Source of the DNA: a virus
IMG/VR virus record: IMGVR_UViG_3300050821_007188
Location: 1-62,201 of that record
Direction: 5' to 3' (one strand)
DNA: 62,201 nt
Shown here: positions 3,444 through 29,874 of the stretch, one piece after another
Layout of the letters: the number at the start of each line of letters is the position of its first letter
Numbering within the stretch: the stretch's first letter is position 1
Position numbers and translations under genes: made by a program
The notes under the pieces: model-generated
What the model was told of the DNA's origin: nothing
The model's database searches: none
Seen by the model: only the letters and a program-made list of their open reading frames with translations

Positions 3444-3674
3444 GTGGCGACGGGTGGCACGTTCATCAATAAATCTGAGCTGGTCCGCGAACTGTGCGTC
3501 GACCGCAAGACGTTGGACCGCAGGATTGCCGACGGATCGTTCCCGCCGCCTCACTCCCGGGTCGGGCCTCGCGTCGCGCTATGGCTTCGCAAGCACTATC
3601 AGTTCTACGTCGACAATCGGCGATGGCCTGCCGAGGCTTACTCCCGCGACTCGGGTTCGGCCATCCAGTCTTGA
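3444..3674 (+). CDS. Helix-turn-helix, probable excisionase
   Basis: This is a 76-residue basic protein from a GTG start preceded by GGGGAG. SELVRELCVDRKTLDRRIADG is a MerR/AlpA-like helix-turn-helix and RVALWLRKHYQFYV follows as the wing and helix region. It overlaps the 3' end of the convergent integrase gene by 37 bases, which fits a recombination directionality factor. It could instead be a small transcription regulator. Confidence 0.65.
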   Translation: MATGGTFINKSELVRELCVDRKTLDRRIADGSFPPPHSRVGPRVALWLRKHYQFYVDNRRWPAEAYSRDSGSAIQS

Positions 3675-4786
3675 TTGTCTGTGTCCGTGAGGTCGAGATA
3701 ACTCATCGTGGTTTCGATGTGGCTATGCCCGAACCATCGCATTACAACGTAGACAGGTATCGCACGCTTGGTCAGTTGGCCGAGAACGGCCCACCGGCCG
3801 AACGTCCGGCGCATGTGGTGATTCGGGGAACTTGGGGCGCGGAGGCCGGCGCGGCGGCAGGCGCGGCGGATGGCTGGGTCGGTCACGCTCACCCGAAGTT
3901 TCCGGCCTCTAGCCGAGTGGAGAACGAACGGGCAGTCTTCATTTCGCACGGAAGAGAGCCGAAACAGGAGGTCGTGAGCCGTCTTGGACATTGGCACCGA
4001 GTAGCCTCGCCCAGCCTTGTCGAGTTCTGGGCGGACGACGATTGTCCCGAATCCGCGCCCATCCTTCGCCGTCCAGCGGATATCGCGCCATTCCAGCCCA
4101 CAGAGAGCGGCGATCCTCAGCCCCGATTGCGTCCCGAGCGTGAGGAGATCCCGGAGCCACGGCTTCGTCTTCACGATCAATGCCGCGTATTGCTCGGGAG
4201 TCCAGTGCGACCGCTCTTTCCGCTTCTTCCGTTCCTTGGACCAGCCCGGCGCGGTCGTCGGCTTCCAGGGAGAGGCCGGCATCTCGCCGAGCTTGACGGC
4301 CCGGGACCACGCCCCCGAGAGAAGTGCCCGCTCTTGATTCACCCGGCCCGGGCTGATGGGCTTCCCGGTTTTCTTGCTGATCTGCGCCGCCCGCCAGTCC
4401 AGGAACTTCTGGCAGACGGACGTAGTAATCTGGTCGAGGCGGACGACCTTATTGACGGCGCACCATGCCGCGAGCGTGCGGACAGCCTGGTTGAGTTGGA
4501 TGATGGACCCGTCCGCGTGCTCGACGGAGAAGGCGATCCGGTAGGTTGCGAGGAAGTCAACGACCGACAGGCTCGGGTCGACCGGGCGATTCGACCGCGC
4601 GGCGCGTTCCCGGTCAGCGAAGATCTTGACAGCCGCCTGCGCCTCGGGCGGGATTTTCTTCGGCTCGGGACTGCCGGGCTTCCACCCCGAAATCTTGTGG
4701 ACCGTCGGCCTCCGCCATCGGTATCCGTCGTGCCACTGGACTCGATATGTGCCACGCTGTTTATCGAAGTGGGGGCCGGATGCCAT
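3638..4786 (-). CDS. int: Tyrosine recombinase (phage integrase)
   Basis: This 382-residue site-specific recombinase integrates and excises the phage. The N-terminal region (to about residue 70) is arm-binding-like and basic. A SAM-like core-binding domain covers about 72-175 and the catalytic domain about 195-370. Visible catalytic residues are Arg224 (SGLRIAALCGLEW), the HHMRRTFG box (about 323-330), His354 (WFGHSHIETT) and nucleophile Tyr363. The length is normal. It is leftward, converging on the excisionase-like gene, with a candidate -35/-10 upstream (TGGACA, 18 bases, TATAGA). Confidence 0.93.
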   Translation of the reverse strand: MASGPHFDKQRGTYRVQWHDGYRWRRPTVHKISGWKPGSPEPKKIPPEAQAAVKIFADRERAARSNRPVDPSLSVVDFLATYRIAFSVEHADGSIIQLNQAVRTLAAWCAVNKVVRLDQITTSVCQKFLDWRAAQISKKTGKPISPGRVNQERALLSGAWSRAVKLGEMPASPWKPTTAPGWSKERKKRKERSHWTPEQYAALIVKTKPWLRDLLTLGTQSGLRIAALCGLEWRDIRWTAKDGRGFGTIVVRPELDKAGRGYSVPMSKTAHDLLFRLSSVRNEDCPFVLHSARGRKLRVSVTDPAIRRACRRAGLRAPSSPNHHMRRTFGRWAVLGQLTKRAIPVYVVMRWFGHSHIETTMSYLDLTDTDNQDWMAEPESRE

Positions 4787-5077: not shown

Positions 5078-5791
5078 ATGGCCGGAACAGTGTACTTCAT
5101 CCGCTCGCTGACGCCGCCCCGGATCAAGATCGGTTTCACCGCCGCTGATCCGGGCCTCCGTTTCCGCCGGCTCCGGGCCATCAATTCCGGTTCAGTCGAG
5201 CCGATCGCGCTAATGTCGGGGCCGAAGTTGCTAGAGACCGAGATCCACACCCGGTTCGCCAGTATCTGGGATCACGGCGAGTGGTTCGAGGCGACGCCGG
5301 AGTTAGAGGCGTTCATTGCGGAGGCGGCCACACCTTGGGCGGGCAAGCCGCTGGCGTTCCGACGGAAGCTCCCGGTGGTCAAGCCGCCGAAGGTCGCTCG
5401 CCCAGAACCCAGGCCCGTCGCATTGCCGCCAGAGCTCGAACCGGCCCCGCGGACGCCTTCGGTACGGGAGATCCGGGACGAGCAGAGACGGCTCCGCAAG
5501 CAGAGGGCTCGCTACGAGGAGAGTGGGGTTGAGCCGAGCGGGGACTTCCTTGTGCTGGCGGCACATTACGGCGTTCCGGTCCGCTCGGAAGACGAGCCAC
5601 CCAAGCCGCTCCCCGCGAACGGGCGCCGGACCATCGTAGAATTTGAGGAGATCGAGCCACGCGGCGTGATTGAAGTCCTGGAGTGCGGGCACCACGGGAA
5701 GAGGCACCGCGGATTCGCCAGTGCCCAGTACTACTCTCCACGGCGCCGGCTCTGCCGCGAGTGTCTAGCCGCAGCCTCGCACGTCGCCTAA
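5078..5791 (+). CDS. T5orf172/GIY-YIG-like protein with C-terminal zinc motif
   Basis: This protein has 237 residues. Residues 1-90 (VYFIRSLTPPRIKIGFT ... LLETEIHTRFA ... GEWFE) match the T5orf172 (MUG113-type) family, a relative of GIY-YIG nucleases found in many phages. A charged linker follows. Near the end come CGHH and CREC, which could bind zinc. The start is preceded by GGGGAG. A shorter relative is encoded at 60609-61067. DNA binding is likely, nuclease activity unproven. Confidence 0.75.
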   Translation: MAGTVYFIRSLTPPRIKIGFTAADPGLRFRRLRAINSGSVEPIALMSGPKLLETEIHTRFASIWDHGEWFEATPELEAFIAEAATPWAGKPLAFRRKLPVVKPPKVARPEPRPVALPPELEPAPRTPSVREIRDEQRRLRKQRARYEESGVEPSGDFLVLAAHYGVPVRSEDEPPKPLPANGRRTIVEFEEIEPRGVIEVLECGHHGKRHRGFASAQYYSPRRRLCRECLAAASHVA

Positions 5792-16719: not shown

Positions 16720-17127
16720 GTGTCCGAATACGTCACAGATGTCACACCTAGAAAAAAGGGCGATTGGCGATGGAAGTTTCTAGACTACTTGTCTAGGTCT
16801 TCATGCGTCAATGAGGCTTGTCTCGCCGCTGGCGTCAATCGTCGCAGGGTCTACAGGCATCGCGAGCGGTTCCCGAAGTTCCGCAAGGCTTGGGACGAGG
16901 CGCTGGTCATCGCGACCGAAGCCCTTGAGGCCGAGGCGCGGCTACGGGCTTTCGATCGATCTGACCCGGCGTCCGCCACGCTGATGATCTTTCTCTTGAA
17001 AGCCCACAAGCCCGACAAGTATCGGGAGAGCCCGAAGCCTACGCCCAGCCTGGCGAGCGGCGAACTGCCCAAACGCATAGCCATCCTCGGTGCCGATGGA
17101 AGACCCACGCAGAACGATTCCGGTTGA
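16720..17127 (+). CDS. terS: Terminase small subunit-like protein
   Basis: This 135-residue protein starts at a GTG. CVNEACLAAGVNRRRVYRHR is a helix-turn-helix, followed by DPASATLMIFLLKAHKPDKY, the typical end of many small terminase subunits. It would recognise the packaging site on phage DNA. It overlaps the large subunit gene by 38 bases, which supports the call. Confidence 0.8.
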   Translation: MSEYVTDVTPRKKGDWRWKFLDYLSRSSCVNEACLAAGVNRRRVYRHRERFPKFRKAWDEALVIATEALEAEARLRAFDRSDPASATLMIFLLKAHKPDKYRESPKPTPSLASGELPKRIAILGADGRPTQNDSG

Positions 17128-19453
17128 TATCCGCATAGCAGAAGCGCTAGAAGCCGGGACGCTGCCCAAACAGCTCATGTGCGACAGTCCGGCAGGCTGC
17201 ATAGCCGCCGAAACGAGGCTGTTCGACCCAACGACTGGCGAACATGTGCCGATTGGCGAATTGCATAGGTGCGGCATCGCGCCGATGGTGGCGACCCTCT
17301 ATGGGCCTCGGCGAGCGTCGGTGCCCTTTGTCAAGGGCGTGGCGCCGCTCTACCGAGTCACGCTAGAGACCGGCCAGTCATTTCTCGGAACGGCCGACCA
17401 TCTCATTCTGACGCCGGCCGGGTGGACTCATGTTGGCCGTGTGGACATCGGGGACGCGGCGCTCGCATCGCGGCCCATCCCTCTTCTGTCCAGGCCGGGC
17501 GCCGACCTTTCAGAGTCGCCGCAAGATGCTCGGCGTTCGTTGCAAATAGTTCAAGATTGTCGGGGGAGTTGTTCTGGCGGTCATCGTCCTTGTGATGCAC
17601 GACTTCGGCCGGAAGTAGTAGTCGCCCGATCATCCGCTCCATCACAAGACGGTGCTCCCGGATATATCCGTGCCGGTTTGCTTCGGGATGATCTGGCATC
17701 AAGATCAGGACGTACCCAGTCTTGTCGATCATTCGTCCGCCCTTCCATGCCGGGTTATTCTTTCCCGACTGATGGAATGGGGTTCGATCGAATCTGCGAC
17801 GATCAAGAAAACGACGGACGTCCGAGTGACTACAGCCTATGCGTCTCGCCATTTCCGAAAAGGATAGACCTTCGTTCGCCCATGCGCGAATCTTGTCGGC
17901 GTGCTGGTCGCAAATACTCGGCCGACCGCCGACCGACTTCATGCCGGCTGTCTTCAGTGCGTGGCGGACCTGCGCCATTGAACAGCAGGCGTCTGCCGCG
18001 ATTTCTCCCGTCTTCATGCCCGATTGATGGAGTTCCCGAACCCGCGTTTTCTGCTCTGTGGTCAGGTGTCGCACGCCCTTCGATGACATTGTGGTGTCCT
18101 CCTGAATGCAATTCTATCGTGCAGTGGGGACAGATCAAGAGCATCACGTACGAGCGAACTGATTCCTATTATGATTTGACTGTACCTGGGGCTGAGCATT
18201 ATCTTGCCGAGGGAATCTGGCATCACAATACTGGCAAAACCTACGGAATCCTCCGCGCCCTCCACTGCATCGCCGCCGATTATCCCAATCTTCGCATTCT
18301 CATTTGTCGCCAAACCCGCGCGTCCCTCACGGAATCCGTGATGGTGACGTACGAGGCGGAAACGCTGGTCGAGGATGCGGCCCAGTCGATCGCCTATGGT
18401 GCCTCACGCCGCACCCGCCAGAGTTACAACTATCCCAACGGCTCGACGATCGTCCTCGGTGGCCTCGACAAGCCAGACCGCATCCTGTCGACCGCCTGGG
18501 ACATCGTCTACGTCAACGAGTGCGTTGAGGTCCAGGAGGAAGCCTGGGACGCCCTCTGGGGCCGCCTTAACCGCCCCGGCCGCCCCTCGTGGCTCGGCTA
18601 CCTGATTGGCGACACCAACCCCGGCGACCCGGGCCACTACCTGAAGAAACGGGCCGACGCGGGCGAGATCGGGCGCTGGCAGGTCGATCATAAGGCCAAC
18701 CCCGCTCTATGGGATGGACGGGACTGGACGCCGGCGGGCAAACAGTATCTTGACTCGCTCGGCCGGCTCAGGGGCACGCGGCGCAAGCGGTTTCTTGAGG
18801 GGATTTGGGCGGCGGGCGAGGGTCAGTGGTTTGAGTGCTTTGGGGATGGCAATGTCACAACCGAAGCCGAATTCCATCCCAACTATCACGTCCATCTCGC
18901 GGTCGACTCAGGCGTCCATACTGGGGCCGTGTGGTTCCAGGTGCGAGGCGAAGGCGACGCCACCCGAATCACGGTCTTCGGCGATTACTACAGCTACGGT
19001 GTCCCGGCCTACGATGCGGCCCGGGCGATCGTGTCGCGGTCTCACGAGTTATGCCGGGGTCGAGTCGACCGCTCCACAACCGACCCAGCCGGCAAGGCAG
19101 CGAACGCGGTAGGACCGACGGTGCTCGGCGAGTACGCGCGGGCCGGGTTCAAGCCTGAATCGTGGCCGAGCTTTCCGGGCAGCGTTGCCGATGGCCTTGG
19201 CCTCATCAACTCATTCGTGGCGATCGACCCGCCGGCTCTGACCGTTCATCCGCGCTGCACCAAACTTATCGAAGCCTTCGCGAACTACAAGCGGGCGAAG
19301 CGGGCGGGGCAGTTCATTGATAGGCCAGAAGATCCTTGCCATCCACATGAAGACCTCTTGGATGCGTTAAGGGGCGGTCTTCAAGACAAGTTCCCGGAAG
19401 GACGCAGGCCAGCCTTGAACATTCAGCGTGTTCCAAGGCGATCGGTCATTTGA
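17090..19453 (+). CDS. terL: Terminase large subunit interrupted by an intein
   Basis: The 787-codon frame is a 443-residue packaging motor after removal of a 344-residue intein. The N-extein ends CDSPAG and the C-extein begins TGKTYGILRA, which rebuild Walker A (SPAGTGKT). WDIVYVNECVEV is the Walker B region. HLAVDSGVHTGAVWF, DPAGK and HEDLLDALRGGL mark the RNase H-like nuclease. The start is GTG 17090 or ATG 17096. Activity requires splicing, because the P-loop is cut in two. Confidence 0.93.
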   Translation: MPMEDPRRTIPVDIRIAEALEAGTLPKQLMCDSPAGCIAAETRLFDPTTGEHVPIGELHRCGIAPMVATLYGPRRASVPFVKGVAPLYRVTLETGQSFLGTADHLILTPAGWTHVGRVDIGDAALASRPIPLLSRPGADLSESPQDARRSLQIVQDCRGSCSGGHRPCDARLRPEVVVARSSAPSQDGAPGYIRAGLLRDDLASRSGRTQSCRSFVRPSMPGYSFPTDGMGFDRICDDQENDGRPSDYSLCVSPFPKRIDLRSPMRESCRRAGRKYSADRRPTSCRLSSVRGGPAPLNSRRLPRFLPSSCPIDGVPEPAFSALWSGVARPSMTLWCPPECNSIVQWGQIKSITYERTDSYYDLTVPGAEHYLAEGIWHHNTGKTYGILRALHCIAADYPNLRILICRQTRASLTESVMVTYEAETLVEDAAQSIAYGASRRTRQSYNYPNGSTIVLGGLDKPDRILSTAWDIVYVNECVEVQEEAWDALWGRLNRPGRPSWLGYLIGDTNPGDPGHYLKKRADAGEIGRWQVDHKANPALWDGRDWTPAGKQYLDSLGRLRGTRRKRFLEGIWAAGEGQWFECFGDGNVTTEAEFHPNYHVHLAVDSGVHTGAVWFQVRGEGDATRITVFGDYYSYGVPAYDAARAIVSRSHELCRGRVDRSTTDPAGKAANAVGPTVLGEYARAGFKPESWPSFPGSVADGLGLINSFVAIDPPALTVHPRCTKLIEAFANYKRAKRAGQFIDRPEDPCHPHEDLLDALRGGLQDKFPEGRRPALNIQRVPRRSVI
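17403..18089 (-). CDS. HNH homing endonuclease nested antisense in the intein
   Basis: This 228-residue protein is read opposite to terL. Residues about 9-50 and 52-100 are two helix-turn-helix modules (MKTGEIAADACCSMAQV; LSFSEMARRIGCSHSDVRRF). Residues 111-190 are an HNH_3-type nuclease: NNPAWKGGR, YIREHRLVM, VVHHKDDDRQNNSPDNLELF (His165/His166, Asn178) and AEH. AGGAGG lies 8 bases before the ATG (18103-18098), with TAGAAT farther upstream. Its end overlaps intein block B just after the TxxH histidine codon. Confidence 0.92.
   Translation of the reverse strand: MSSKGVRHLTTEQKTRVRELHQSGMKTGEIAADACCSMAQVRHALKTAGMKSVGGRPSICDQHADKIRAWANEGLSFSEMARRIGCSHSDVRRFLDRRRFDRTPFHQSGKNNPAWKGGRMIDKTGYVLILMPDHPEANRHGYIREHRLVMERMIGRLLLPAEVVHHKDDDRQNNSPDNLELFATNAEHLAATLKGRRPAWTEEGWAAMRAPRPRCPHGQHESTRPASE
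18087..18116 (-). promoter_or_regulatory. Promoter plus RBS cassette of the antisense HNH gene
   Basis: On the minus strand TAGAAT (18116-18111) is followed after 7 bases by AGGAGG (18103-18098), then 8 bases and ATG. The total geometry equals that of four cassettes at 53.1-54.2 kb, and the bases are very close to the one before 53851. Confidence 0.65.
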
Positions 19454-20722: not shown

Positions 20723-20786
20723 TGATTGACTCCTTCGGGCATCGTTCGCCCGCCTCCATTCTACCCAAGTCTGAGCATCCCCTTTG

Positions 20787-22535
20787 ATGCAGTGGCCGAA
20801 GAAGAAACCCCGGCTCTACTTCGGCCCCGCGCCCGAACCGGCGGCGGGTGCCGGCGCACTCGGCGACGCCGATGCTGAGGTCGTGCGCCGTCGATCTCCT
20901 GAGTGGAACGAGCACCAGCTGCGGTGGCGGTGGCTACTCGATTCGCTGGAGGGTGGCGAGCGATATCGGCAGGCTGTCTACGGATACGACATCCGCGGCC
21001 TGCCCGTCCGCAACCTGATCCGGCACAAGCGGGAGTATCCGCTGCCGTCGGATTCGGCCCTGTCCAACGTCTACGCGCTGCCGAATGGCATCGCCAGCGG
21101 GGCGCCGGGGGCCGTGGGGTCTGATCCCGCCGCCCTTGCGACTGACGATGACTACGAGCTTCGCCGCGCCCGGACCCCCGTCCCCACGTTCCTTGGCGAG
21201 ACGATCGAGACGCACGTCTCGCGGATCTTCGCGCGGGAGGTCAACCGGGACGGCCCGCCTGAACTGATCGAGTGGTGGGGCGATGTCGATGGCCGCGGCA
21301 CATGCATCGACGATTGGATTAGCGATGAGGTCGGTCCGCTGCTTCTAGCACTGGGCCAACTCGATATCTACTTTGACCATCCAAAGGCACCGGACGGCGA
21401 GAAGGTCGAGAATCAGGCCGATGTCTTGAGGTTGGGGCTGTCCCGGTGCGTCGCCTCGTACATCCTGCCCGAGAACATGCTCTGGTGGTGTCTGGACGAC
21501 CGGGGCCGCTACCGCGAGTGTCTGGTGCGGGAGTTCCCGGACGGCGGGGACGCTCCGATGCCGGGCGCACCCATCGCCCCGTCCCACACCTCTCGCGTGT
21601 TCTTCCGCCATTGGACGGCTACCGGGTGGACGCTCAGGGATGCGACGGGGCAAGTTCTCGAAACGGGGGCGCATGCGTTCGGTCGCGTGCCGATTGAGCG
21701 GATCTTCGACCGACGCAAGCCCCGCTGCAAGAACGTGGGCATGAGCCGGTACGAGGCCATCGCGGAGATCCAGCGCGAGTTCTACAACCGCGACTCCGAG
21801 CTTGTGCTGTCCGACTCCCTCCAGGCCCACCCGCTCCTCCAAGGCCCCGAAGACTACTGCACGGCCGATGGCGAGATGCCGATCGGTCCCGGCTTCATGC
21901 TCCCCATGAAGAAGACGGGTGCCGGGACGGATCATTCTTACCACGGGTTTGAGTACGTCTGCCCCGACAAGGACGCCGCGGAGTCGATCCGCAAGAATAA
22001 GAGCGACCTTCGCGATGAGGCGGATCGGTCCGGCAAGTTGACGAAGCCGGCGGGCAGCGCTGGCACAACGGGTAAGACCGTCGGCCAGTCGGGCGTTTCC
22101 AAGTGGATCGACAAGGACGACGGCAACGACCTCCTGGGCAAACTGGCCAAGGTACTGGGGCGCTTCGAGAACACCTGTGCGGACCTTGCCCTTCTCGTGC
22201 TGAACGAAGGCCGCGAGTCAGACGTCGAGATTAAGATCGATTATCCGGCTGAGTTCGACCTGTTTAGCCTGGACGAACTGCTGGACGCCACGGCCTCATT
22301 CCAGGGGATCGCGGCGAAGTCCGGCATGGCCCCCGAGGTCGAATCCGCTCTCATGCAGGCGATCATTCGCCGGGTTCTTCCCGGTAAAGAAGACGCCGTG
22401 TATGCCGCATACGACGCGGAAATCCGGGCGTTGATTGATGCCCGCGCGACCGCCGCCGCCCAGACCGCCGAAGAGACCGCGAACGGCGGACCTGCTATGC
22501 AGATGGGCGACACATTCTCAACTGCTGTTGACTGA
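20787..22535 (+). CDS. Portal protein
   Basis: This 582-residue protein is of portal length, with typical features: N-terminal RWLLDSLEGGERYRQAVYGY, TPVPTFLGETIETHVSRIFA, RYEAIAEIQREFYNRDSELV and a C-terminal helical domain (LGKLAKVLGRFENTCADLAL). It resembles DUF4055-type portals. It would form the dodecameric DNA channel at the head vertex. The start is ATG 20787 without a clear ribosome binding site; TTG 20784 is the alternative. Order terminase-portal-scaffold-capsid supports it. Confidence 0.85.
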   Translation: MQWPKKKPRLYFGPAPEPAAGAGALGDADAEVVRRRSPEWNEHQLRWRWLLDSLEGGERYRQAVYGYDIRGLPVRNLIRHKREYPLPSDSALSNVYALPNGIASGAPGAVGSDPAALATDDDYELRRARTPVPTFLGETIETHVSRIFAREVNRDGPPELIEWWGDVDGRGTCIDDWISDEVGPLLLALGQLDIYFDHPKAPDGEKVENQADVLRLGLSRCVASYILPENMLWWCLDDRGRYRECLVREFPDGGDAPMPGAPIAPSHTSRVFFRHWTATGWTLRDATGQVLETGAHAFGRVPIERIFDRRKPRCKNVGMSRYEAIAEIQREFYNRDSELVLSDSLQAHPLLQGPEDYCTADGEMPIGPGFMLPMKKTGAGTDHSYHGFEYVCPDKDAAESIRKNKSDLRDEADRSGKLTKPAGSAGTTGKTVGQSGVSKWIDKDDGNDLLGKLAKVLGRFENTCADLALLVLNEGRESDVEIKIDYPAEFDLFSLDELLDATASFQGIAAKSGMAPEVESALMQAIIRRVLPGKEDAVYAAYDAEIRALIDARATAAAQTAEETANGGPAMQMGDTFSTAVD

Positions 22536-22597: not shown

Positions 22598-23353
22598 ATG
22601 ATTCGCCTCAGCCCCGAAGCGGGCGAGGGTGGTGGTTCGCCCACGCCCGCCCCCGCGCCGACCAATGCGACCCAAGCCATGAACCCGATCCCCGCACCCG
22701 CAGCCCCGCAGACCGTGGCCATCCCCGTGGACCAACTCCAGCACTTCCTCGGCCTGGAGCGGAAGCTCGGCGAGATCCGCCAGGCGGAGAACGCCAAGGT
22801 GGAGGCTGCGGAGCGGGAGAAGAACCTGGCCCTCGCAAAGAAGGGCGACGTCGAGAAGGCCCTGGAGCAGTCCGAGACCCGGTGGCAGACCAAGCTCGAC
22901 GAGGCGAACGGCAAGTTCGGCTCGCTGGAGTCCGAGTATTACGGCGAAGTCCTCCAGCGAACGATCGCCGATGGCCTGCCGGCCGAGCGGTTCCACAACG
23001 GGTTCATGTTCGCCACGGCGCGGAGCCTGATCGCGCAGTCCCTGGAGATCGCACGCGACACCGCCGGCAATCTGGTGGTCCGCGAGAAGGGCACGTTCCG
23101 CCCCGCGAAGGATGTGATCGCCGAGCGTCTAGCCTCGGCCGATTTCGCCCCGTTCCTGAAGCCGGCCACGACAGGCGGCGCGGGCGGTGGCGGCAAGACC
23201 CCCGAGCCGGTCAAGCCGGCGGAGACGGAGCAGGGGACTTTCCTGGATCGAGTCCTGGCGGGCGAGAAGATGCGCTCCGCCGCGGTCTCGGCCGGCGGCC
23301 ATGCCGCCGGAATGGGTGTCGGCCTCAGCGGTCGCTACGCCCATCGCAACTGA
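22598..23353 (+). CDS. Scaffolding protein
   Basis: This 251-residue protein has a disordered Pro/Ala N-terminus. A coiled coil follows (about 48-110, with LGEIRQAENAKVEAAEREKN and KALEQSETRWQTKLDEA), then a conserved-looking central helix region and a Gly-rich tail. It lies directly before the capsid gene. This is the plan of phage scaffolds, which shape the prohead and leave. Confidence 0.8.
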   Translation: MIRLSPEAGEGGGSPTPAPAPTNATQAMNPIPAPAAPQTVAIPVDQLQHFLGLERKLGEIRQAENAKVEAAEREKNLALAKKGDVEKALEQSETRWQTKLDEANGKFGSLESEYYGEVLQRTIADGLPAERFHNGFMFATARSLIAQSLEIARDTAGNLVVREKGTFRPAKDVIAERLASADFAPFLKPATTGGAGGGGKTPEPVKPAETEQGTFLDRVLAGEKMRSAAVSAGGHAAGMGVGLSGRYAHRN

Positions 23354-28525: not shown

Positions 28526-28729
28526 TCAGCCTAGATAGTCCTCGGGCGGCGCCTCCTCGTACGGCCAGAGCTTCTGGAGTGGCCACGTTATCACACCCAG
28601 GATCAAGACAAGCCCGCCGAAACCCAGGGCAAGGTAGAGGATCTGTCCGGCCTCCTTGATTCCGGCCACGTCGAGCACGAAGAGCAGGACAGAGCCGGCG
28701 GCGAGATTGCGGGCGTCCGAGAGTTTCAT
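28526..28729 (-). CDS. Small two-TM protein coupled to the acyltransferase
   Basis: This 67-residue leftward protein has membrane segments at about 10-25 and 30-50 (LYLALGFGGLVLILGVITWP) and an acidic tail. It overlaps the acyltransferase stop by four bases, so the two form one unit. Confidence 0.6.
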   Translation of the reverse strand: MKLSDARNLAAGSVLLFVLDVAGIKEAGQILYLALGFGGLVLILGVITWPLQKLWPYEEAPPEDYLG

Positions 28730-29874
28730 GGCGCGGCCACCCCGCACCGAGGCAGCGGCTCCCCTTGGCCGGCTGCAAAGTGGGCCACGGCCTGTCGAGC
28801 CGGAAACCACCGCCCCCGCATCGCCATCACCGGCCGCTCGACCAGATGATAACTCGCTAGCGCACAGCCGAAGACCGCCAGCACGTTGAGCGGGAAAACC
28901 TGGAGCAACCCGAGCGGCAAGGGGCCGGGTCGGGGCACAAGGAAGAGTTGCTGCCAAAGGTAGAGGCTGTACGAGATCCGCCCGATCCACCGGAGCGGAC
29001 CCCACTCCAGGGAGCGGCCTACCAGAGTCCCGGGGTGCAGGACCGTGCCCACGAGGACCAGCGGCAGAAGTAGGGCAACCCAAAGCCGGGCCATTGGCAT
29101 GCCGGGGCCGTAGAGCACAACGAGCATTACGGCCACGAGCCCCCACCACGCCGCGGGGGACAACCAACGGTCCAGCCGGCCACGCCAGCCGGGGTCGGCG
29201 ACGAGCAGTGCAGCCCAACAGCCGAAGACCAGCCCGTCAAGCCGCGTGTCAGTGCGGAACACGTTGCCGGGGAAGCTTTGTCCGAAGACGCGGGCGGCGA
29301 TCTGCCAGTGGGAATCGATCCCCCGCCAGACGGCGATCCCCATCCCAAGCCCGAACGCCAGTCGCCTCGCTCGGGGCACTGTGGCGGCCAGCACGAGCAG
29401 CGCGGGCCAGATCAGATAGAAATGCTCCTCGACCGCCAGCGACCAGAAGTGCCGGGTGTAGAGGCCGTCCAGGGGCTTCGGCACATAGTTGCGAAGGAAC
29501 ACGAGGCAACTTAGGAACTCGCCTCGCTTGACCGCGAGCATGCCCGCGGCCCCCAAGAGGCCGACCACCGCCAGATAGGCAAAGTAGGGCGGCAGGATGC
29601 GGAAGGTCCGGCGGAGGTAGAAGCCGCGGAGGTCGATCCGCCCCGTCTTCGCCCGCTCCGCCAGTAGTCGGGTGCAGATCAGGTAGCCGCTGATCGCGAA
29701 GAAGACGTCCACTCCCACGCCCCACTTATCGACGACCGCCGTCAGCGCCGCGTTAGGCGCGTATCCCCGCGGCCCGATCAGCTCGAAATGGGCGTGGTAA
29801 GCCATCACGGCCAGGATCGCGACGGCCCGCCAGCCGTCGAGGGTTGGGATGTAGCGGGCGGCGTCGCTGTTCAT
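28726..29874 (-). CDS. Acyltransferase 3 (OafA-like) membrane protein
   Basis: This 382-residue, roughly ten-TM protein has the family signatures TLDGWRAVAILAVMAYHAHF, VGVDVFFAISGYLICTRLL and FYLRRTFRILPPYF. HFWSLAVEEHFYLIWPALLV, SYSLYLWQQ and YHLVERPVM follow. This family O-acylates sugars of envelope glycans. On a prophage it could alter the host surface and block re-infection (lysogenic conversion). It is leftward with a -10-like TAGACT upstream. Confidence 0.9.
   Translation of the reverse strand: MNSDAARYIPTLDGWRAVAILAVMAYHAHFELIGPRGYAPNAALTAVVDKWGVGVDVFFAISGYLICTRLLAERAKTGRIDLRGFYLRRTFRILPPYFAYLAVVGLLGAAGMLAVKRGEFLSCLVFLRNYVPKPLDGLYTRHFWSLAVEEHFYLIWPALLVLAATVPRARRLAFGLGMGIAVWRGIDSHWQIAARVFGQSFPGNVFRTDTRLDGLVFGCWAALLVADPGWRGRLDRWLSPAAWWGLVAVMLVVLYGPGMPMARLWVALLLPLVLVGTVLHPGTLVGRSLEWGPLRWIGRISYSLYLWQQLFLVPRPGPLPLGLLQVFPLNVLAVFGCALASYHLVERPVMAMRGRWFPARQAVAHFAAGQGEPLPRCGVAAP

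Follow-up and report, generated by a model that had tools for sequence, protein, structure and literature searches.

An HNH endonuclease gene on the opposite strand of an intein that interrupts a phage large terminase gene

Introduction

Can an intein carry a homing endonuclease on the opposite strand, as a gene of its own rather than as a domain of the spliced protein? This question is raised by the large terminase subunit gene (terL) of the virus record IMGVR_UViG_3300050821_007188 (IMG/VR), analysed here over the whole record (positions 1–62,201, hereafter the window). The reading favoured by the analysis, with a probability of roughly 0.86, is that the locus represents a likely mobile intein of a widespread antisense-endonuclease class, for which splicing, HNH expression and DNA cleavage are inferred.

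The terL locus of the window

The terL precursor is encoded on the plus strand at 17090–19453 (787 aa) as an N-extein, an intein and a C-extein, and its reading frame contains no stop or frameshift along the entire length. The gene is directly preceded by that of the terminase small subunit (16720–17127, plus strand; PHROG phrog_4044, E 1e-18) and is followed by a portal gene (20784–22535) and, downstream of the portal, a scaffold gene (22598–23353), an order that corresponds to the tailed-phage layout. The N-extein (17090–17197, plus strand) ends in CDSPAG, immediately ahead of the Walker A lysine motif, and its junction with the intein occupies an equivalent position across 30 aligned family members. 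The C-extein (18230–19453, plus strand) resumes with TGKT, the end of Walker A, and continues into the TerL ATPase and nuclease domains. It matches the PHROG terminase large subunit family phrog_2 (E 1.3e-25), Pfam Terminase_6N and tblastn relatives, and aligns to TerL profiles across nearly its full length. The only intein-free relative found for the window lineage (L001) is distant, with 36% identity.

Elsewhere in the window, a tyrosine integrase is encoded at 3638–4786 (minus strand; Pfam Phage_integrase, E 2.7e-17), and the phage is therefore probably temperate. A T5orf172/MUG113-type (GIY-YIG-like) protein at 5078–5791 (plus strand), supported by weak Pfam matches, is possibly a further selfish endonuclease. 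A membrane acyltransferase of family 3 (28726–29874, minus strand; Acyl_transf_3, E 2.4e-30) lies amid structural genes and may act in host surface modification.

The splicing domain and its sense insert

The intein spans 17198–18229 on the plus strand (344 codons, C1 to N344) and interrupts the Walker A loop in frame (SPAG/C...HHN/TGKT), with Thr at position +1. Block A (17198–17215, CIAAET) supplies Cys1, block B (17387–17401, GTADH) supplies T65 and H68, block F (18167–18214, YYDLTVPGAEHYLAEG) supplies Asp326, and block G (18218–18229, WHHN) supplies the penultimate His and the terminal Asn, all on the plus strand. Residues C1, H68, D326, H342, H343 and N344 are unchanged in all 30 aligned inteins. 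At the family junctions examined the +1 residue is Thr, Ser or Cys, and some later-recruited members have C-terminal ends of NHN, VHN or AN rather than HHN.

Profile comparison of the window intein yields Pfam PF14890 (Intein_splicing) over residues 49–344, together with the NCBIfam N- and C-terminal models TIGR01443 and TIGR01445. In the AlphaFold (AF2) model, residues ~1–92 and ~306–344 form confident Hint halves with pLDDT mostly >90, whose best PDB matches are mini-inteins (4o1r, NpuDnaB, E 1.8e-7; 3ifj, E ~2e-7), and the sense segment between the two halves has pLDDT <50 for most of its length. Pfam detects no endonuclease domain in the sense frame of the window intein or of any of the 30 family inteins, and no families besides splicing and Hint domains in these 30 sense inteins.

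Together, the in-frame insertion, C1, the +1 nucleophile, the block B His, the penultimate His, the terminal Asn and the Hint fold meet the sequence and fold criteria for an intein. The feature of a canonical HEN-containing intein, an endonuclease in the same reading frame, is not met; nor is that of a mini-intein, the lack of any endonuclease coding sequence, given the antisense HNH gene described below. Splicing competence is inferred from the intact catalytic residues and the predicted fold, without splicing data.

Two other candidates were considered and rejected. For a group I intron with an antisense homing endonuclease gene, this region of the window matches no intron family, even with E values allowed up to 1, and protein-splicing blocks are present instead. 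A hidden HNH of the ShiLan type, described in the final section, is excluded by the antisense position of the HNH and by the complete Hint blocks.

It could also be argued that the element is dead, with splicing lost and terL reduced to a pseudogene that holds a fossil. The absence of functional data and the slightly deviant P-loop of the window (SPAGTGKT), in which Walker A starts with Ser, speak for this explanation. Against it stand the uninterrupted frame, the presence of every splicing residue, the nearly full-length fit of the C-extein to TerL profiles, and the lack of any second TerL found in the 62,201-base record, whose single TerL match is the 17090–19453 frame. A dead element is therefore regarded as very unlikely.

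The antisense HNH gene

The strand opposite the sense insert encodes an HNH protein of 228 aa (17403–18089, minus strand; ATG at 18089–18087, stop at 17405–17403). Its stop lies one base past block B and its start ahead of block F, and the gene therefore occupies the usual slot of an in-frame endonuclease. Pfam assigns HNH_3 (E 1.4e-10) and HTH_38 (E 1.2e-6), with two helix-turn-helix modules in the N-terminal part and the HNH_3 catalytic region at residues 146–187 (17529–17654, minus strand). The AF2 model has a mean pLDDT of 89. Residues H166, N174, N178, N185 and H188 are invariant in the 32-member family alignment, leaving the catalytic motif intact, and HNH_3 is detected in 27 of the 32 antisense proteins. 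A Foldseek search with the HNH model gives no match at E < 0.001. With VIA-align, I-HmuI (1u3e) is among the top rows (residues 109–196, Z 6.9, 77 residues, rmsd 3.5), a Z value in the range that possibly reflects a common arrangement only. By the features tested, the partner is an HNH_3 protein of the homing-endonuclease type; its cleavage activity is inferred.

The initial annotation had placed blocks A, B, F and G in the terL frame at 17198–18229, splitting SPAG/TGKT, had described the sense insert between B and F as patternless, and had assigned to the reverse strand a 228-residue HNH_3 protein with HTH modules. All three statements hold, the second through Pfam and the low AlphaFold confidence and the third through Pfam. 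The evidence strongly favours its further claim, that the antisense HNH gene lies inside the intein without being part of the spliced protein. The annotation had named two outcomes that would refute it, a recognised in-frame endonuclease in the sense insert, or failed splicing in a dead copy with a functional terL elsewhere; Pfam reveals no such endonuclease and one TerL is found in the record, with splicing remaining inferred.

Dual coding of the two strands

Within the window, the intein frame crosses the HNH gene with 0 stops against ~5.9 expected (P(open) ~0.0007), and the other two frames of the intein strand contain 7 and 5 stops. The same pattern extends across 33 loci, where 0 stops interrupt the intein frame opposite the HNH genes against ~179 expected when the HNH is recoded with synonymous codons at local usage, and the two other frames contain many. 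Free-standing HNH relatives provide a natural control: in 55 of 55, the corresponding frame is interrupted by one or more stops.

The frame register is identical in 57 of 57 loci (for Sabo and PHS3 it was taken from coordinates): position 1 of each antisense codon lies opposite position 1 of a sense codon, and its wobble base opposite sense position 2. A Phe with Ile, Met, Thr, Asn or Lys as the next residue invariably creates a sense stop in this register. Such F[IMTNK] dipeptides are absent from the embedded HNH domains (0 vs 35.8 expected) and occur at the expected level in free-standing ones (32 vs 31.6 expected). No codon pair that creates an intein-frame stop is used in the HNH gene, and both this avoidance and the fixed register arise because the two strands must keep working. 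In addition, conservation of the HNH protein exceeds that of the intein-frame peptide in all 519 member pairs, and the codon position most variable between members is the third of the HNH frame. The functional protein in the overlap is therefore that of the antisense frame, with the sense frame mainly kept open.

A test for selection on the hydropathy of the sense loop shows no net effect (Stouffer Z 1.6). Relative to random synonymous recodings of the HNH gene, the sense loops of 51 family inteins contain about twice as much Asp, Glu and Gln and less Arg, Gly and Pro, a bias that may be attributable to codon usage. As a separate observation, the free-standing relatives L082, L083, L095, L098, L112, L115, L127, L137 and L156 have a stop-free opposite strand in register 0, for which G+C bias or a different antisense nesting is a possible cause.

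Expression signals of the antisense gene

The HNH gene is preceded by a Shine-Dalgarno sequence, AGGAGG (18098–18103, minus strand), 8 nt ahead of the antisense ATG, and by a sigma-70-like promoter, TTGATC-16-TAGAAT (18111–18138, minus strand), with 9 of 12 matches. Both signals are enriched across 51 loci relative to 300 synonymous recodings of the intein frame: Shine-Dalgarno matches of at least 5 occur in 19 of the 51 (4.1 expected, maximum 10 among recodings), and the mean promoter score is 8.16/12 (6.49 expected, maximum 7.02 among recodings). Loci L058 and L074 contain perfect promoter hexamers, and the antisense promoter of PHS3 reads TTGACA-17-GATAAT. Judged from sequence, the HNH gene has promoter and ribosome binding signals of its own on the antisense strand; expression and its timing are inferred.

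These signals bear on a further rival, in which the antisense frame is merely a relic or arises by chance as a mirror frame, the true product being an in-frame domain that has escaped recognition. This explanation draws support from the wholly open sense frame and from the fact that open antisense frames are not rare in G+C-rich DNA. It is contradicted by the Pfam results, which give no non-splicing domain in 30 sense inteins and HNH_3 in most antisense proteins, by the better conservation of the HNH frame in every pair, by the mostly low-confidence sense insert in AlphaFold, and by the antisense position of the promoter and Shine-Dalgarno signals. The mirror-frame explanation is all but excluded.

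A family of antisense-HNH inteins

The HNH protein alone, used as a query against viral contigs, found no close relatives, and splice-junction DNA patterns were used after this query gave nothing. The DNA pattern HHN/TGKT occurs in 70 stretches of viral contigs; among those with a Hint intein of this lineage, all but one hold an antisense HNH relative within the intein. A second pattern, Y[L/F]AEGxWHHN, adds extra viral loci and one MAG contig. The HNH-side pattern GYVREHRLVME, which makes no reference to the intein, gives 70 new loci, comprising 22 with intein N-/C-blocks on the opposite strand, 0 with such blocks on the same strand as the HNH, and 48 free-standing HNH relatives.

Collectively, an antisense HNH inside an intein is present in 57 distinct loci (33 with the window included, a further 22, PHS3 and the Sabo group). 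The initial annotation had proposed a search for antisense HNH genes at this insertion point; the searches described here give 56 further distinct loci: 54 metagenomic ones, the isolated phage PHS3 and the Sabo group. Most loci are metagenomic, and the recruiting profiles were built from members. Across 63 reading frames with both Hint halves of the lineage, an antisense HNH is found in 62, a sense HNH in 0, and neither in 1. This sole HNH-less case (L011) is a 399-nt mini-intein at HHN/TGKT and is possibly an endonuclease-loss form.

Isolated carriers are Pseudoalteromonas phage PHS3 and the Pectobacterium/Dickeya phages Sabo, Ymer, Abuela, Koroua, Amona, Pappous, Taid and Setonix. The host gene is mostly terL; by sequence, L024, L079, L092, L118, L123 and L134 have helicase-like P-loop exteins, and the host gene of L047 resembles a replicative primase-helicase. 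The element is thus spread over many phage P-loop ATPase genes.

Two observations concern individual members. The C-terminal part of the L094 TerL contains a second intein with in-frame LAGLIDADG-like motifs (by eye), placing the antisense-HNH intein and a LAGLIDADG-like in-frame architecture together in one protein. In public records, the PHS3 annotation (KX912252.1, 17336–18511) starts TerL after the intein, and in the Sabo group (PQ008974.1, 37606–39870) TerL is annotated as 'hypothetical protein' and the HNH is not called; these mis-annotations of TerL and HNH are explained by the antisense-HNH intein.

Inferred mobility and history of the element

Phages PHS3 and AL share a terL allele, which contains the element in PHS3 and lacks it in AL. 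Exactly 900 nt are inserted between GGAG and SGKS, the flanks are 96–100% identical over ~540 nt upstream and 98–100% over 250 nt downstream, and the AL terL encodes an intact P-loop. This pair meets the mobile-element feature of exact-site presence and absence in near-identical hosts. Its identity profile reveals no co-conversion pattern of the kind expected of very recent homing from a diverged donor, and the difference could represent precise loss instead of gain. Between Sabo and PHS3, the Hint domains are 52% and the HNH proteins 48% identical, and the C-exteins only 17%, which indicates movement between unrelated terL genes. Mobility is an inference that rests on the two alleles in PHS3 and AL and on the occurrence of the element in unrelated genes, in the absence of biochemical data.

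The allele pair also bears on the proposal that the HNH is a packaging accessory that acts with the terminase, not a homing enzyme, and that its location in terL is regulatory or a matter of storage. In some phages, HNH proteins encoded next to the terminase take part in packaging, and this precedent, together with the predominance of terL among the hosts here, speaks for the proposal. Against it, the near-identical terL of phage AL lacks the element, and the element is also found in the helicase-like genes listed above. A packaging role is considered very unlikely.

The two partners appear to share a history. Hint and HNH distances correlate over 50 loci (Mantel r ~0.63), and the AU test does not reject the best tree found in which all the embedded HNHs form a single clade (p-AU 0.518); this tree scores slightly better than the free one. 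A quick HNH tree places a few free-standing relatives among the embedded ones. The simplest reading, which is compatible with the data and not proven, is a single old Hint-HNH association that subsequently travelled as a unit.

Alternatively, the HNH could be an independent selfish gene that has repeatedly invaded existing mini-inteins, with separate histories and an incidental antisense orientation. The free-standing relatives, which make up 48 of 70 loci in the HNH-side search and in a few cases fall amid embedded ones in the quick tree, are in its favour. It is opposed by the same orientation and register in all 57 loci, by the one-clade tree being no worse, by the Hint-HNH distance correlation, and by the single HNH-less intein seen in the lineage. 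Repeated invasion is judged unlikely, and the single-association reading is preferred.

The initial annotation had inferred that an HNH gene colonised a mini-intein and gave it mobility. The first part is refined, since a recent or one-off event is not required and the data can accommodate a single ancient association; the second is consistent with the PHS3 and AL alleles and with the presence of the element in unrelated genes but remains inferred.

Proposed mechanism

In the proposed model, the sense strand would encode a Hint protein-splicing domain split by ~200 domain-less, stop-free codons that are carried as a loop, and the opposite strand of the same DNA would encode a stand-alone HNH homing endonuclease with two HTH modules and HNH_3, expressed from a sigma-70-type promoter and a ribosome binding site of its own. 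TerL would be translated with the intein, whose self-excision is inferred to restore the Walker A loop, and the HNH protein would be made separately, from an antisense transcript. During co-infection, this enzyme is inferred to cut the P-loop codons of intein-free terL alleles from other phages, and repair of the cut would copy the entire cassette. One caveat is that many of the family's HNH_3 proteins are free-standing and may serve other functions.

A bolder reading joins several elements into one claim, for which the balance of evidence tips moderately in favour. It holds that the element is a distinct and ancient mobile class with a splicing element in sense and a mobility nuclease in antisense, equipped with a built-in sigma-70 promoter, spread horizontally through phage P-loop ATPase genes, and containing a loop of ~200 residues kept mainly for being stop-free. 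Under this reading, host RNA polymerase would make the nuclease early in infection, ahead of the late terL transcript.

Opposite-strand placement would decouple endonuclease expression from the host gene. The antiparallel dual coding leaves a measurable footprint over ~200 codons in >50 distinct loci, and the sense insert constitutes a natural test of how far a protein tolerates ~200 residues set largely by the codons of another gene. The PHS3/AL pair, as a natural substrate pair, makes homing directly testable.

Comparison with known systems

A mobile intein with an antisense-encoded endonuclease is apparently an undescribed class. The initial annotation knew of no described example, and none was found in the full-text literature searched, which did not cover the preprint 10.1101/2025.01.02.630785. 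This preprint, cited in PMC11855218, deals with 'non-canonical architecture' in actinobacteriophage inteins and may already describe such an arrangement; novelty is therefore not certain.

The HNH protein shares with I-HmuI (PDB 1u3e) an HNH core with helical DNA-binding modules, and the catalytic part aligns. I-HmuI is encoded by a group I intron, whereas the gene described here is located in an intein and its product carries two HTH modules in the N-terminal part.

The ShiLan domain, a hidden out-of-frame HNH in a phage DNA methylase (PMC11855218), likewise nests an HNH in another phage gene in a different frame, with the host frame staying open. It lies on the same strand in the third frame, whereas the HNH described here lies on the opposite strand and is flanked by a complete Hint domain. 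The ShiLan insert stays in the methylase because no splicing domains are detected.

Group I introns with antisense homing endonuclease genes are known from Didymium (I-DsqI, Dir.S956-2; PMC9548176). They share the placement of the endonuclease gene on the strand opposite the splicing element and its separate transcription, the latter being inferred here. They differ in RNA-level splicing, in their location in eukaryotic nuclear rDNA and in their His-Cys enzyme. As splicing occurs at the RNA level, the Didymium introns have no reading frame to keep open; here the splicing is at the protein level, and dual coding is therefore forced over ~200 codons.

Split-intein 'fractured gene' loci hold a free endonuclease gene between the halves. 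The separation of the endonuclease gene from the intein protein is common to both arrangements. In the fractured loci, however, the host gene and intein are divided into two genes and rely on trans-splicing, whereas here one continuous precursor frame runs across the antisense gene.

Canonical mobile inteins offer the remaining comparison. Mycobacteriophage TerL P-loop inteins with in-frame endonucleases splice and cut (PMC5050341), and they share with the present element the Hint domain, the P-loop ATPase site, endonuclease DNA between blocks B and F, and presence or absence between close phages. In these inteins the endonuclease is an in-frame domain of the excised protein, whereas here it is a separate opposite-strand gene with its own promoter and ribosome binding signals, and the sense insert is domain-less. 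Mobile inteins are usually described as splicing and endonuclease domains within one polypeptide; in the present element, the two are placed on opposite strands.
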